NCBI GenBank assembly: GCA_028711655.1
Contig: JAQTRU010000005.1
Coordinates: 1 to 43,357 of the forward strand
From: Patescibacteria group bacterium
Lineage (GTDB): Bacteria; Patescibacteriota; Patescibacteriia; Patescibacteriales; JAQTRU01
Reading direction: 5' to 3'
Length of the DNA: 43,357 bases
Shown piece after piece: positions 3,268 through 15,496 of the stretch (position 1 is the first letter of the stretch; the number at the start of each line of letters is the position of its first letter). Position numbers and translations under genes: made by a program. The notes beneath the pieces were generated by a model, which did no database searches, was not told the origin of the DNA, and saw only the letters and a list, made by a program, of their open reading frames with translations.

Positions 3268-3390
3268 TTAAGAGGGCCCGCCAAGATAAGGATATTCATC
3301 TTCGTCTTCCTCTTCAACTACCGGCCTGTCGTCCGGAGGTATTGCTTCCAAATCCGATTGTGGTCTTTCCTCATCCGTTTGACGGCACAT
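3268..3390 (-). CDS. Small acidic protein, 40 aa
   Basis: ATG at 3390-3388 opens a 40-codon frame ending in TAA at 3270-3268. The protein starts MCRQTDEERPQSDLEAIPPD and ends with the acidic tail EEEDEDEYPYLGGPS. A strong Shine-Dalgarno sequence (AAAAGGAGGGG) sits about 3-8 bases before the ATG, which is rare in this window, and a perfect terminator follows. It starts 20 bases after the xth stop, so the two are probably cotranscribed. It has no signal peptide or membrane segment and I recognise no family. The tail could mimic nucleic acid or bind basic partners; that is speculation. The support for it being a real gene is the RBS-ORF-terminator arrangement, not homology. Confidence 0.6.
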   Translation of the reverse strand: MCRQTDEERPQSDLEAIPPDDRPVVEEEDEDEYPYLGGPS

Positions 3391-3410
3391 ATTCCCCTCC
3401 TTTTGGATTT

Positions 3411-4163
3411 TTATTCTACTTCGATTCCAACCGGGCAATGGTCAGAACCATGAATTTTTTCGAAAATGAACGCTCTTTTTACCTGTTTTATAAATTTAGC
3501 AGAAACGCAAAAATAGTCAATCCGCCAGCCGATATTCCTGGCCCGGGCGCTAAATCGATAACTCCACCAAGAATACTGGACTTTATTTTTATTAAAATAA
3601 CGGAAAGTGTCTATAAAACCGGAGCTTAAAAATTTAGTCATCCAATTTCGTTCCTCATGGGTAAACCCAGGGTTGCCGATATTGTCTTTCGGCCTAGCCA
3701 AATCAATTTCTTCATGCGCCACATTAAAATCACCGGTTATAATAAGGGGCTTCTTTTCTTCCAGCTTTTTTAAATATTTTAACAGCTTATCATTAAACTT
3801 TAATTTAAAATCCAAACGAGATAATTCATGGTTAGCATTAGGGAAATAAACATTAACTAAATAAAAAAAGCCGCAGTCCAGAACCTGAACCCGGCCCTCA
3901 TTATCCCAGTCTAAATAAGGTAAAATTTTTGTCGCCAACCCCTCTTTTACTAAAATCGCCGTGCCGCTATATCCCGGCCGCTCGGCCGGATGCCAATACT
4001 CTTTATAACCCCCAAAATCAAAATTTTCTTTAAGCCGGGCAATATCAGAAATTTTAATTTCCTGCAGACATAAAATATCCGGTTTTTGCTTTTTTAAAAA
4101 ATTCAAAAAGCCTTTGCGCGCGACCGCCCTTATACCATTAACATTCCAGGATAATATTTCCAT
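3411..4163 (-). CDS. xth: Exodeoxyribonuclease III (AP endonuclease)
   Basis: Cuts DNA at abasic sites and degrades 3' ends during base excision repair. The 250-aa length is normal for the family. The EEP-fold motifs are all visible: WNVNGIRA at the N-terminus (N7), LQEIK with the metal-binding E35, ITGDFNVAH with the Asp/Asn pair, a WRIDYF segment, and the terminal GSDHCPV with D241 and H242. The start is the ATG at 4163 (MEILSWNVNG), the canonical N-terminus. It heads a likely repair unit with the small acidic ORF downstream. The LigD phosphoesterase gene lies 207 bases upstream, beyond an inverted repeat. Confidence 0.96.
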   Translation of the reverse strand: MEILSWNVNGIRAVARKGFLNFLKKQKPDILCLQEIKISDIARLKENFDFGGYKEYWHPAERPGYSGTAILVKEGLATKILPYLDWDNEGRVQVLDCGFFYLVNVYFPNANHELSRLDFKLKFNDKLLKYLKKLEEKKPLIITGDFNVAHEEIDLARPKDNIGNPGFTHEERNWMTKFLSSGFIDTFRYFNKNKVQYSWWSYRFSARARNIGWRIDYFCVSAKFIKQVKRAFIFEKIHGSDHCPVGIEVE

Positions 4164-4180
4164 AATGTTACGAATTACAA

Positions 4181-4360
4181 ATTTTATACAAATTCACAAA
4201 TACCAAACAAACTCTTTCTTTTCGCAAAGACACAAAAACACTAAAACACGGAAAACACTTATGTTTTTGTGTTTTGAGGCCGAAGGCCGTGTGTTTTTGT
4301 GTGTTTCCGTATTTCTTATTTGTAATTTGTGTATATTTATAAACAAATTTGTGAATTTGT
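4181..4360. repeat. Nested inverted repeat between xth and the LigD-PE gene
   Basis: Outer arms ACAAATTCACAAAT (4188-4201) and its exact reverse complement (4347-4360) enclose a second pair, ACACAAAAACAC (4230-4241) with GTGTTTTTGTGT (4291-4302), and a small GGCC-GAA-GGCC core near 4279-4289. The spacer is AT-rich and without a convincing gene. Confidence 0.75.
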
Positions 4361-4370
4361 CTAAATTCTT

Positions 4371-4814
4371 TTATGTTTTATAAATCAGCCAATTCTTTTT
4401 ATCCTTGAACCGCACTAAGACATATTGGCCTTTTAATTTTTTGCCAAGCAAATTAAATTTAAAACTTCCACTTTTTAAACTACCTTCAACTAATTCCCAT
4501 TTTCCCTTGTCCCAAATTTCCACTATCCCCGCTCCGTATTCCCCTTCGGGAATGACACCAAAAAAATTAATGTAATCAACCGGATGATCTTCCACCCGAA
4601 CCGCTAATCTTTTTATTCCTTTTTTCCCTGGTACGCCCTTGGGCACGGCCCAGGACTTTAGCGCGCCCTCCATCTCTAGCCTGAAATCATAATGCAGGTT
4701 GCGAGCTTGATGTTTCTGGACAACAAAACGGGAAAAATTGGTTTTTTTAACTTTGGCCTTCGGTTCCGAGGTTTTTTTAAAATCCCGTTTTTGCTTATAC
4801 TTATCAAGCATCAT
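4371..4814 (-). CDS. Stand-alone LigD-type 3'-phosphoesterase domain
   Basis: Matches the 3'-phosphoesterase (PE) module of bacterial end-joining ligase LigD, which removes 3' phosphate and ribonucleotide blocks from DNA ends. The 147-aa protein carries the family core FVVQKHQARNLHYDFRLE, with the likely metal ligands H35, H41 and D43 and R45, then the AVPKG, VEDHPVDY (H77) and IPEGEYG motifs. No ligase or polymerase domain is attached, as in other known stand-alone PE proteins. The start is the first of two adjacent ATG codons at 4814; the second (4811) is an alternative. The ATG overlaps the TGA of the upstream 49-aa ORF, implying translational coupling. With xth nearby it suggests a small DNA-end clean-up group. 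Confidence 0.92.
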   Translation of the reverse strand: MMLDKYKQKRDFKKTSEPKAKVKKTNFSRFVVQKHQARNLHYDFRLEMEGALKSWAVPKGVPGKKGIKRLAVRVEDHPVDYINFFGVIPEGEYGAGIVEIWDKGKWELVEGSLKSGSFKFNLLGKKLKGQYVLVRFKDKKNWLIYKT

Positions 4815-10637: not shown

Positions 10638-10853
10638 ATGTACTACGACCATGAAACCAATTTAATAAGCTGGGAAATAACGGGAGGCAAAATTGACCAC
10701 ACCCGGGAATTCGGTAATTTTATAATTCACCTTTCCTCTTCCGGCAAACCAATTTTGGTGGAAATTCTTGACGCCTCTAAATTTGTCGGGCAACTTGATA
10801 AAATAAAAGTCGGGGATTTAAAAAATATTGAAAAAACAGTCCCAGCGAGTTAA
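10638..10853 (+). CDS. DUF2283 family protein, putative antitoxin-type partner
   Basis: The 71-aa protein matches DUF2283: the opening YDHETNLISWEITGGKIDHTREFGNF and the closing signature ILVEILDASKF are the two halves of the family motif (normally YDxExDxLYIxL ... GIEILDAS). Length is typical. It follows the DUF4258 gene by about 100 bases, a pairing often seen in bacteria and usually interpreted as toxin-antitoxin-like. The start is the ATG at 10638, without a Shine-Dalgarno sequence. Confidence 0.8.
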   Translation: MYYDHETNLISWEITGGKIDHTREFGNFIIHLSSSGKPILVEILDASKFVGQLDKIKVGDLKNIEKTVPAS

Positions 10854-10888
10854 TTTTTATTAGATTTAAGAATTAGGATTTAAGATTT

Positions 10889-11275
10889 ATGAATGAAGGA
10901 AAAATTAAATCGTTTACAGATTTAGTCGCCTGGAAAAACGGTCACGAATTAGCAATTCATATTTACAAGATTACAAAAAATTTCCCAAAAGATGAGATAT
11001 ATGGCCTGACAAACCAAATGAGAAGAGCAGCGGTATCTGTTACCTCAAATATTGCTGAAGGTTTTGGCAGGCAAGGGTATAAAGAAAAAATTCAATTTTA
11101 TTACTTGTCCCAAGGCTCTCTGACGGAATTAAAAAACCAGTTATTAATAGCAAAAGATATCGGCTATATAAATAAAGAGGATTTTACTATTTCAGCAAAA
11201 ATAGCTAATGATGCCCACAGACTACTGCAGGGTTTAATAACTTCTTCAAAGTCCTTCTTAAATCTTAATTCATAA
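10889..11275 (+). CDS. Four-helix bundle protein (23S rRNA intervening-sequence family)
   Basis: The 128-aa protein carries the hallmark of this family: FTDLVAWKNGHELAIHIYKITKNFP, then LTNQMRRAAVSVTSNIAEGFGR and FYYLSQGSLTELKNQLLIAKDIGYI. Members were first found in insertions of 23S rRNA genes but are usually free-standing and often travel with mobile or repeat-rich DNA; their molecular role is unknown. Here it is the last gene of a block that separates porA from porB, and its spacers (10854-10888 and 11276-11296) consist of TTTAAGATT/TCTTAAATC repeat words. Confidence 0.93.
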   Translation: MNEGKIKSFTDLVAWKNGHELAIHIYKITKNFPKDEIYGLTNQMRRAAVSVTSNIAEGFGRQGYKEKIQFYYLSQGSLTELKNQLLIAKDIGYINKEDFTISAKIANDAHRLLQGLITSSKSFLNLNS

Positions 11276-11296
11276 ATCTTAAATCTTTAAATAGAT

Positions 11297-12229
11297 ATGA
11301 TAAAAAAAATAAATTCCAGTCAAAAATTAAATATCAAGGCAAGCGCAAGGCCCCTGTCCCCCGGCCACCGGGCCTGCGCCGGCTGCGGGCAGATGATCGC
11401 CGCCCGGACTGTAGCTGAAACTCTGGGACCCAATGTCATTATTACTAACGCCACTGGCTGCCTAGAAGTTACAACCACGCCTTACCCGGAAAGCGCCTGG
11501 GGCATGCCCTGGATTCATTCTCTTTTTGAAAACGCCTCGGCGGTTGCTTCCGGAATTTTGGCGGCTCTAAAACAGAAAGGCGATAAAAAAACAAAGGTCG
11601 TTGCCCAAGCCGGCGACGGCGGCACCTTTGATATAGGCATCGGCTTAATTTCCGGCATGTGGGAAAGAGGCGAAAATATTTTGTATATCTGCTACGACAC
11701 CGAAGCTTACTCTAATACCGGCGTCCAGGCCTCGGGCGCTACGCCTTGGGCCGCCAGCACGACCACGACGCCAGCCGGAACCGGCCCAACCATTGACGCC
11801 ATTGGTTCGCACCAGAGAAAAAAAGATATGATAGCAATCGCTTTGGCGCATGGCCTGCCTTATGTTGCCCAATCCACTTCCGGGTTTCCCGAAGATATTG
11901 CCCGCAAAGTAAAAAAAGCCTTAAGTATAAAAGGTCCTGCCTATATTCAGATTTTAACTCCCTGCGTGCCTGGTTGGAATATAGAACCAAGCCAGACCAT
12001 AAAAATGGGAAAACTGGCTGCCCAAACCGGGTTGTACCCTCTCTTGGAATATGAAAATGGACAACTAATAAATGTTTCCAAAATCCCACAGCCGCGGATA
12101 AAGGCAGAAGAGTATTTAAAACTCCAGGGCAGATTTAAACATTTATTTAAAGATCAAAAAGGTAAAGAGCAAATTAATTATATTCAAACCCTAGCTGACC
12201 AAAATATTGACAAATATGGGTTAAGATAG
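11297..12229 (+). CDS. porB: Pyruvate:ferredoxin oxidoreductase, beta (TPP-binding) subunit
   Basis: The 310-aa subunit binds thiamine diphosphate and a 4Fe-4S cluster. Visible features are the cluster cysteines in CAGCG (C27, C30), ATGCLEV (C55) and LTPCVPGW, the TPP-Mg motif AGDGGTFDIGIG (G107-D108-G109) with the downstream D-T-E-A-Y-S-N-T segment (N140), and GVQASGATPWAASTTTTP. All catalytic features are intact, so the enzyme should be complete if porG, porD and porA are co-expressed. The gene lies 3.07 kb downstream of porA, an unusual separation. A bidirectional terminator follows at 12251-12278. Confidence 0.95.
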   Translation: MIKKINSSQKLNIKASARPLSPGHRACAGCGQMIAARTVAETLGPNVIITNATGCLEVTTTPYPESAWGMPWIHSLFENASAVASGILAALKQKGDKKTKVVAQAGDGGTFDIGIGLISGMWERGENILYICYDTEAYSNTGVQASGATPWAASTTTTPAGTGPTIDAIGSHQRKKDMIAIALAHGLPYVAQSTSGFPEDIARKVKKALSIKGPAYIQILTPCVPGWNIEPSQTIKMGKLAAQTGLYPLLEYENGQLINVSKIPQPRIKAEEYLKLQGRFKHLFKDQKGKEQINYIQTLADQNIDKYGLR

Positions 12230-12250
12230 AAAATTAAAAATAAAAAATAA

Positions 12251-12278
12251 AAAACACGCCGGTATAAGCGTGTTTTTT
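12251..12278 (+). terminator. Bidirectional intrinsic terminator between porB and the tRNA cluster
   Basis: The stem AAAACACGC (12251-12259) pairs with GCGTGTTTT (12268-12276), with an 8-base loop and a T-run on the plus strand. A-runs at the left give a T-run on the minus strand too, so it can end both porB and the minus-strand tRNA transcript. Confidence 0.85.
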
Positions 12279-12281
12279 GTG

Positions 12282-12358
12282 TGGACTTGAGAGGGCCAGA
12301 ACCTCTGACCTCCACAATGTGAATCCCGCCAGCGGGCGGGACGGGAGTGGCGTTCTAA
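12282..12358 (-). pseudogene. Degenerate valine-type tRNA remnant interrupted by a palindrome
   Basis: On the minus strand the 3' half is recognisable: anticodon loop TTCACAT (12317-12323, CAC), anticodon stem TGTGG, a T-arm AGAGG-loop-CCTCT with an unusual loop TTCTGGC, and an acceptor strand CAAGTCC. The 5' side of the anticodon stem (CCAC) is separated from the loop by a 22-base palindrome-bearing insert (12325-12346, core TCCCGCC-AGCG-GGCGGGA). Removing the insert restores a 5-bp CCACA/TGTGG stem. No matching 5' acceptor strand is present, since the preceding tRNA ends at 12369. I therefore call it a remnant, not a working tRNA. Confidence 0.55.
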
Positions 12359-12368
12359 AAATGAATAG

Positions 12369-12587
12369 TGGGCGTATCTGGATTCGAACCAGAGACTTCT
12401 ACGACCCGCCTGCTTCGCTTTGCATTTTTCTGTGGGTCTGGGGGGACTTGAACCTCCGACCTTACGGATGTGAACCGTACGCTCTAACCAGCTGAGCTAC
12501 AGACCCTTTTATTAATATTTTAAATAATTTAAGCGAAGCAAAGCGGGCAGGTGTGAACGCAGCACTCTACCGCTGAGTTATACGCCC
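12369..12587 (-). tRNA. tRNA-Val(CAC) split at the anticodon loop by a 147-base insert
   Basis: The 5' half is 12587-12552: acceptor GGGCGTA, D-arm CTCAGCGGTAGAG, anticodon stem CTGCG, then TTCACA. The 3' half is 12404-12369: T, stem CGTAG, variable loop, T-arm TCTGG-TTCGAAT-CCAGA, acceptor TACGCCC and discriminator A. Joined, the halves give a full cloverleaf with loop TTCACAT and anticodon CAC; the anticodon stem pairs with one G-U. The insert (12405-12551) begins after position 37, and its ends (CCTGCCCGCTTTGC... and ...GCAAAGCGAAGCAGGCGGG) pair over about 19 positions with two G-U and two C-A. A second complete tRNA lies inside. Whether the insert is removed from RNA is unknown. Confidence 0.7.
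12433..12506 (-). tRNA. tRNA-Val(CAC), nested inside the split tRNA
   Basis: Minus strand: acceptor GGGTCTG (12506-12500) pairs with CAGACCC (12440-12434), discriminator A at 12433. D-arm GCTCAGCTGGTTAGAGC, anticodon arm TACGG-TTCACAT-CCGTA (anticodon CAC), T-loop TTCAAGT. The T-stem GGAGG/CCCCC has one A-C mismatch. Length is 74 bases. It sits in the insert that interrupts another tRNA-Val of the same anticodon. Confidence 0.88.
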
Positions 12588-12741
12588 AAAGTTATTTTCT
12601 TTTTTCACCTCTTCCTTTTTGCATGGGATTCAAACAGCCTGCCCCGCTAGGGGAGCTGGCCGGGAATTTAAATTGAATCTTAATCCCTAATTACCTAAAT
12701 ACCTAATTCATTCTTAATTCTTAAATCATAAATCTTAAATC
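12588..12741. repeat. Repeat-filled spacer upstream of the tRNA cluster
   Basis: Holds a GC palindromic unit at about 12638-12664 (CCTGCCCCGCTAGGGGAGC...GGCCGGG), related to the unit at 8255-8310, followed by TAATTACCTAAATACC and TTAATTCTTAAATC words up to the RNase H stop. No gene is seen. Confidence 0.7.
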
Positions 12742-13152
12742 TCAGACTCCCCTGTCCATCGCCTTATTCGCCAAAACGTCCGCTTCTTTATTTCTTTCCC
12801 GAGGCACATGATTAAAACTTACTTTTTTAAAACCGATTTCCAAATTATAAATCTGTAAAAACAAAGGGGCTAATTCCGGATTCTTAACCTTATATTCTCT
12901 TTTTAGCTGTTTAACCACTAATTCGCTGTCTAAATAAAAATCCAACTCCTCCCCGCCTAATTCCTTGGCTTTTTTCATGGTCGCAATTACCGCTTTGTAT
13001 TCGGCCTGGTTATTGGTAGCGTGGCCAATATGTTCCGAAATTTCCGCCAGCTTTTTTTTATTCCCGTCATAAATCACTCCCCCAATTCCGCCCGGACCCG
13101 GGTTCCCTCTCGCCCCACCATCCGTGTAGATTATTAATTTCTTATAAGACAT
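12742..13152 (-). CDS. Ribonuclease H (RNase HI family)
   Basis: Cleaves the RNA strand of RNA-DNA hybrids. The 136-aa protein shows the family core: IYTDGGARGNPGPGGIGGVI with the first catalytic Asp, ATNNQAEYKAVI with the catalytic Glu, FYLDSELVVKQL with the next Asp, and VPRERNKEADVLANKA with the last acidic residue. It is the short RnhA-like form common in bacteria and archaea, without an N-terminal hybrid-binding domain. It lies just downstream of recJ on the same strand; the 33-base gap between them is made of CGTTATG heptamers, so the pair may be cotranscribed. Confidence 0.94.
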   Translation of the reverse strand: MSYKKLIIYTDGGARGNPGPGGIGGVIYDGNKKKLAEISEHIGHATNNQAEYKAVIATMKKAKELGGEELDFYLDSELVVKQLKREYKVKNPELAPLFLQIYNLEIGFKKVSFNHVPRERNKEADVLANKAMDRGV

Positions 13153-15058: not shown

Positions 15059-15496
15059 TTACTCATCCTCTCTGCGCTTACCGGTTATTCCTATGTGTTT
15101 ATGATCATTAGTAAGAACTACTCTTTTAATGTATAATTTTGGGCTTCTGAAATTAACAAAAATTCCGAGCTCAAAATCACTTACTTTTAAATAACTATAT
15201 ATCTGGTCCACAAAATTCCTTGGAATTATATCAACTGCTTTTACTTCTAAAATTATCTTATTCTCAATAATAAAATCCGGCTTATAAGCTCCGATGATTC
15301 TGCCTGTTAATGGCGAATAAATGTTGATGCTGACTTCTCTCTTATATTTAATCCCATACTTTTGCAGCAATTCCTCAATAATATTACAGTAGACTTTCTC
15401 TTTATGCCCTGGGCCATATATTTTTCTGGCCTCTATTAATATACCCTGAACCTTATAACTTAACTCCTTATATATTATTTCCCCTCCTTGATACAT
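15059..15496 (-). CDS. GxxExxY family protein (PD-(D/E)xK nuclease-like)
   Basis: The 145-aa protein has the namesake motif in GPGHKEKVYCNIIEELL (G-x2-E-x2-Y) and the nuclease-like core KPDFIIENKIILEVKAV, followed by QIYSYLKVSDFELGIFVNF. These features match the GxxExxY family, whose members are related to PD-(D/E)xK nucleases and have no settled role; they are often seen near repeats and structured RNA or rRNA insertions. The start ATG at 15496 is followed within the ORF by a GGAGGGG stretch, but no later start codon fits it, so I keep 15496. Confidence 0.92.
   Translation of the reverse strand: MYQGGEIIYKELSYKVQGILIEARKIYGPGHKEKVYCNIIEELLQKYGIKYKREVSINIYSPLTGRIIGAYKPDFIIENKIILEVKAVDIIPRNFVDQIYSYLKVSDFELGIFVNFRSPKLYIKRVVLTNDHKHIGITGKRREDE

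Follow-up and report, generated by a model that had tools for sequence, protein, structure and literature searches.

In tRNA-dependent lysogeny, temperate phages use a tyrosine integrase to insert a whole prophage via attP/attB (Guerrero-Bustamante and Hatfull 2024, PMC10865867), and rescue by the carried tRNA has been proven for these phages (PMC10865867). The locus described here, from a Patescibacteria group bacterium, follows the same rescue logic, in that a host tRNA gene is disrupted and its cognate is carried by the insert. It differs from phage lysogeny in that the insert is 147 nt long, has inverted-repeat ends and a tRNA as its only gene, and apparently makes a permanent replacement. 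Its position in the anticodon loop recalls tRNA introns, both those of group I and those of the archaeal bulge-helix-bulge type, and position 37/38 is the canonical site of protein-spliced tRNA introns. Unlike these introns, however, the insert lacks a catalytic core, no splicing enzymes were found for it and it contains a tRNA.

REP sequences and REPINs, with their RAYT transposases, resemble the insert as short stretches of DNA with two inverted, hairpin-forming ends and no gene of their own (PMC3116915, PMC3733652), and the spacer of a REPIN is free to vary provided that the hairpin forms (PMC3116915). By contrast, GTAG/CGTC tags were not seen when the ends of the cassettes described below were read, and the arms of our insert are not a high-copy family in the genome, which has three Y1 transposase (Y1_Tnp) genes. 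We know of no REPIN spacer with a tRNA gene. Rickettsia palindromic elements (RPE) have been described within open reading frames (PMC3733652). They are palindromes inside genes, as are the 20-bp and TCCCG..CGGGA hairpins that we found in remnant tRNAs, but here it is copies of tRNAs that are interrupted, and some of the cassettes enclose a complete tRNA. Finally, SegB-type GIY-YIG homing endonucleases adjoin phage tRNA genes (PMC13096335). At five loci of the genus, predicted GIY-YIG genes similarly separate an intact tRNA from fragments of tRNAs, whereas our insert has no GIY-YIG gene; no nuclease gene lies within or beside it.

tRNA genes are usually pictured as stable and vertically inherited. 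We describe a tRNA-Val(CAC) gene that was probably (at a rough probability of 0.8) replaced in place by a nested insertion. Its anticodon loop is split by a short cassette that has inverted-repeat ends and holds a complete cognate tRNA-Val. Other tRNA genes of the genus show this architecture, as does the corresponding locus in other Parcubacteria, and uninterrupted comparators exist. Our searches of the open-access literature turned up no account of cognate tRNA insertions of this nested kind in Patescibacteria.

A complete tRNA-Val gene inside a disrupted one

The window, which is the whole 43,357-nt stretch of DNA that was analysed, corresponds to contig C5 of the source genome (G000), a draft of 1.10 Mb (1,096,403 bases in 75 contigs) that is related to Candidatus Falkowbacteria and other Parcubacteria. 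The original prediction, made from the sequence alone, had read two segments as the halves of one tRNA-Val(CAC), and its coordinates proved exact (Table 1). ARAGORN joins the halves into a 72-nt tRNA-Val(cac) with full acceptor, D and T stems and an anticodon stem that is full with one G-U pair. When the inner tRNA was masked and an intron was allowed, the latter as the prediction had itself proposed, ARAGORN called the outer gene with a 147-nt 'intron' after its nucleotide 36. This is the canonical position 37/38, where the break had been placed.

The ends of the insert pair over 19 positions, with 15 Watson-Crick pairs, 2 G-U pairs and 2 mismatches, which agrees with the extent of pairing first noted; the chance of at least 15 matches at two fixed 19-mers is 1.2e-6. 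Both ARAGORN and Rfam recovered the complete tRNA of the same anticodon that had been predicted within the insert, and of the 46 tRNAs in the source genome it is the only intact Val(CAC), as a whole-genome check showed. The insert contains only this tRNA, a leader and the arms, with a 9-nt spacer between the inner tRNA-Val and the right arm, and integrase and att sites are absent. Its cargo is of the same isotype, Val(CAC), as the gene that it disrupts. The outer gene is discontinuous, disrupted into two separated halves and not reconstructed, and the halves show no decay and no missing bases.

Run plainly, ARAGORN and Rfam report only the inner gene at this locus, a warning to annotators that split tRNA copies escape tRNA finders. 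An intron-allowing search of 0.94 Mb of the source genome, with intact tRNAs masked, returned this locus and a nested tRNA-Pro only, and the same search of three simulated genomes gave no match. A G+C-rich, palindrome-like stretch was also observed between rnhA and the outer tRNA (window 12635-12664).

History of the rnhA-linked site

Directly downstream of the nested pair lies a third, decayed tRNA-Val, which the first reading of the sequence had missed. Without the palindrome inserted into it, its anticodon arm reads CCACA-TTCACAT-TGTGG. The gene order recJ-rnhA-tRNA-Val(CAC) is kept across the order, and the congeners G001 and G002 each have one intact, classical Val(CAC) at the rnhA-linked site, the one in G002 preceding the same terminator as the third tRNA of the window. 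Because its 3' part and terminator match this intact locus of G002, the third tRNA is most likely what remains, in decayed form, of the genus's own resident gene.

The outer tRNA is of a type other than that of the genus resident. Whether relatives have an uninterrupted tRNA-Val was a question raised by the original prediction, and they do: uninterrupted tRNAs of the outer type lie directly after rnhA in G010, G029 and G076 (92% identity) and near other tRNA genes in G031. The outer tRNA differs from that of G076 by compensated stem changes and one G-U pair; as expected, these differences are consistent with a gene that was functional until recently. If the third tRNA is indeed the older resident, the site would have turned over more than once.

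Table 1. Features of the nested tRNA-Val locus, in window coordinates
Feature	Coordinates	Strand	Basis
rnhA, upstream syntenic anchor of the tRNA-Val locus	12742..13152	-	Pfam RNase H
Outer tRNA-Val(CAC), 5' half, positions 1-37	12552..12587	-	Forms a full cloverleaf with 12404-12369
Left inverted-repeat arm, CCTGCCCGCTTTGCTTCGC	12533..12551	-	Pairs with 12405-12423; inverted repeat I9
A+T-rich leader, candidate promoter, from left arm to inner tRNA	12507..12532	-	Sequence
Inner, intact tRNA-Val(CAC)	12433..12506	-	ARAGORN; Rfam 67.1 bits
Right inverted-repeat arm, GCAAAGCGAAGCAGGCGGG	12405..12423	-	
Outer tRNA-Val(CAC), 3' half, positions 38-73	12369..12404	-	
Third, decayed tRNA-Val(CAC), 5' part missing	12280..12358	-	3' part and terminator align with G002
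22-nt palindromic insert in the anticodon arm of the third tRNA, TCCCGTCCCGCCCGCTGGCGGG	12325..12346	-	Sequence
Terminator hairpin, common to the native locus of the genus	12249..12278	.	Inverted repeat I7; alignment with G002

Nested tRNAs recur in the genus and beyond

Recurrence was assessed in the whole source genome and in most tRNA neighbourhoods of G001 and G002, which together gave 137 intact tRNAs. In 24 of the 137, the intact tRNA was flanked by fragments of a cognate, a 5' one upstream and a 3' one downstream, compared with 3 of 685 non-cognate controls; the 24 nested cases are not all independent, as orthologous cases were counted in more than one congener. When the gene's own sequence served as the sole query, nesting was found for 6/46, 3/44 and 5/47 tRNAs, against 2/460, 3/440 and 2/470 controls. 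Cognate tRNA fragments occurred within 600 nt of 32 of the 137 intact tRNAs (10/822 in non-cognate controls). Six genomes were also run through ARAGORN with intact tRNAs masked and an insert allowed; four of them yielded split tRNAs, nine in all, and three simulated genomes yielded none. One of the nine, a tRNA-Phe in G136, is a true group I intron by Rfam.

In G001 the anticodon loop of the resident tRNA-Met (GGCTGGG...) is interrupted by an insert with the arms TTCACCCCGTCACAAAT and ATTTGTGACGGGGCAAG that holds a very different tRNA-Met; the resident type is intact in G000 and G002. The rnhA-linked tRNA-Val site has been split independently in other Parcubacteria: the tRNA is uninterrupted at L249, a new Val(CAC) lies within the anticodon loop of a closely similar tRNA at L229, the split is in the D-loop at L234, and a 5' fragment alone is left at L227. 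Nested Thr and Ala were found in G136, which belongs to another class. A search of all 1,096,403 bases of the source genome turned up no tRNA species represented by interrupted copies alone and no Gln(TTG) of any kind, the latter probably because of an assembly gap.

In interrupted Val(TAC) copies (L057, ~3330-3760; L179, ~4300-4720), the hairpins of G000 and G001 occupy matching sites in the tRNA. Their tRNA pieces are nearly identical and the hairpins have diverged; conservation of the pieces could reflect gene conversion with neighbouring copies, or selection on some function. At the nested tRNA-Ile(TAT) (L071/L159), the acceptor-stem type that the inner tRNA has in one of G001 and G002 is found on the outer 5' part in the other, and vice versa, which is a sign of recombination between copies. 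The fetched tRNA regions of G002 also contain a proline-like tRNA (CGGGGTGTAG...CACCCCGACCA) with the anticodon AGA according to ARAGORN.

Cassette ends and palindromes

Hairpin-like inverted-repeat arms around a spacer were found in the window (over 19 positions), at L229 and L234, and at the Met and Ile loci of G001. The Met, Ile, Val(TAC), L229 and L234 cassettes have common ends, CYTGCCCC...GGGGTGAA, with small variants and in either orientation, and inner arms that are variable yet mutually complementary. At four of the junctions (Met, Val(TAC), L229 and L234) the resident tRNA has lost a CA/TG dinucleotide. The arms in the window (CCTGCCCGC.../...GCAGGCGGG) need not belong to the same family: they do not have the shared ends, and the outer halves there lack no bases.

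Neither an exact second copy of the window's arms nor a high-copy repeat of them was found in the source genome, and the argument for mobility is therefore built on recurrence and comparators. One exact pattern taken from the Ile cassette had no match in 39 genomes across the phylum; judged by their sequences, the cassette arms are not conserved. Inverted-repeat arms around all intact tRNAs were hardly above a shuffled-pair control, and we did not use this general test as evidence because A+T-rich flanks give false arms.

Smaller palindromes that are free of cargo also occur in remnant tRNAs. Copies of Thr, Asp, Glu and Pro tRNAs hold a 20-bp palindrome (CCTGCCTGCCGGYAGGCAGG) whose insertion neither duplicated nor removed target bases, and TCCCG..CGGGA hairpins are also carried by remnant tRNAs. 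The 20-bp family has 36 copies in the source genome, and 11 of these fall within 400 nt of a tRNA, a zone that makes up 3.5% of the genome; of the 21 copies outside long reading frames, 7 lie this close to a tRNA, compared with 10% of that sequence. These counts are no more than suggestive of tRNA targeting by the 20-bp palindromes.

Two protein-coding genes of the window were also noted. A gene for a 23S rRNA intervening-sequence (four-helix) protein (PF05635; 10889-11275, plus strand) is bracketed by 49-nt inverted repeats (10850-10898 and 11264-11312) that are 71% complementary, and the gene with its repeats is possibly another inverted-repeat cassette. A homologue is found at the same place in G001, and none was found in the fetched G002 region. 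A PD-(D/E)XK_3 (GxxExxY) gene (15059-15496, minus strand) lies between lepA and recJ, a position at which it was not found in G001 or G002.

Proposed replacement of tRNA genes by cognate insertions

We propose that hairpin-ended cassettes insert into tRNA genes, after which the outer gene would be broken and the inner one would take over. The cassettes would be small, hairpin-ended mobile elements of REPIN-like layout, sometimes with a tRNA in the loop. In these genomes most tRNA species are encoded by a single gene. An insertion that disrupts such an essential gene would survive only if it brought the cognate tRNA, and this would explain why inner and outer genes are cognate. A broken tRNA rescued by its nested copy was the second of two inferences in the original prediction, and both the comparators in relatives and the recurrence support it.

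A replacement cassette, rather than an intron, is the best reading of the insert, and there is a real chance that such cassettes are a new class of minimal mobile element. Considerably more tentative is the idea that Patescibacteria have minimal mobile cassettes, composed of hairpin ends and a tRNA gene, that invade and take over tRNA genes in a 'tRNA-dependent transposition' between lineages without an integrase or a phage. The recurrence of tRNAs inside tRNAs points to a little-known bacterial way of swapping tRNA genes in place: across a large uncultured bacterial group, tRNA genes appear to have been overwritten repeatedly by small insertions that bring the cognate. In-place overwriting, if true, would be a concrete route for the turnover and transfer of tRNA genes, would explain the different tRNA-Val types at one syntenic site and would mean that rescue of the kind seen in tRNA-dependent lysogeny also operates with very small non-coding cassettes.

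Alternative origins of the nested arrangement

The nested loci might instead be scars of larger integrative elements (a prophage or ICE) that brought a replacement tRNA and were later reduced to the tRNA and the ends, an origin to which we give a small chance. Phages with tRNA-dependent lysogeny do bring such a tRNA (PMC10865867), and GIY-YIG genes lie between the fragments and the intact tRNA in several cases. However, the inserts examined are only ~100-600 nt long and no integrase was seen in them, and it is unlikely that independent deletions would have left flush complementary arms each time. Phage records searched with the insert gave only generic tRNA matches.

Marginally less probable still is ordinary tandem duplication of tRNAs followed by random insertion of palindromes into the redundant copies, with nesting being incidental. 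Palindromes are common in the source genome away from tRNAs as well, as in the 20-bp family, and several interrupted tRNA copies adjoin an intact copy without nesting. But inner and outer tRNAs often differ strongly, as do the Val genes here and the Met genes in G001, and such pairs are therefore not tandem duplicates. Incidental nesting also sits poorly with intact genes that lie within the anticodon loop, the D-loop or the 25/26 junction with matching arms, at several tRNAs and, for one locus, in several genomes.

Unlikely splicing of the insert

A functional outer tRNA, with the insert removed in the manner of an intron (or with the halves forming a split tRNA held together by the 19-position helix) and the inner tRNA released, is improbable in our judgement. 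This reading was the first inference of the original prediction, which had considered a spliced palindromic insertion. Several features fit it: the break is at the site used by protein-spliced introns, both halves are intact, the precursor transcript is predicted to fold with a long helix (z -4.6), and the pieces of the interrupted Val(TAC) are conserved between two species while the hairpins vary.

The machinery for splicing was not found, however. Searches for the group I core (Rfam RF00028) found nothing in the window, nor at L071, L077, L229, L234 and L322, all of them nested loci; besides chance matches and an RNase P RNA, Rfam reported only tRNAs in the window and at the other nested loci. 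As a positive control, the group I intron in the tRNA-Phe of G136, a phylum mate, was detected by Rfam at 63.9 bits (L320 3788-4033). The missing core argues against a group I intron in the window. A protein-spliced, archaeal-type intron is unlikely too, as neither the RtcB ligase (PF01139) nor the archaeal-type tRNA splicing endonuclease EndA (PF01974) was found in the source genome.

The sister loci also argue against a functional outer tRNA. Several insertions there deleted CA or TG from the anticodon loop, and removal of the insert would therefore not restore the anticodon. Other outer tRNAs are badly broken (Phe, Pro and, with an acceptor mismatch in G002, Ile), and every interrupted copy found in the source genome has an intact cognate. 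Splicing of the insert is unlikely on these grounds, and the first inference is not supported. An assembly artefact in which two tRNA loci were joined or collapsed, as might happen in a draft genome of 75 contigs where tRNAs are repeats, is very hard to reconcile with the precise junctions, the synteny on either side and the presence of such structures in genomes that were assembled independently. In-place replacement by a nested insertion is the reading that we prefer.

A GIY-YIG gene beside tRNA-Lys fragments

At another locus of the source genome (L106 1133-1960, contig C55), a GIY-YIG gene comes after an intact tRNA-Lys(TTT), and the 3' half of that tRNA then appears in two identical copies of 43 nt. 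Each copy has a palindrome just before the anticodon loop, and the stop codon of the GIY-YIG gene falls in the D-loop of the tRNA fragment.
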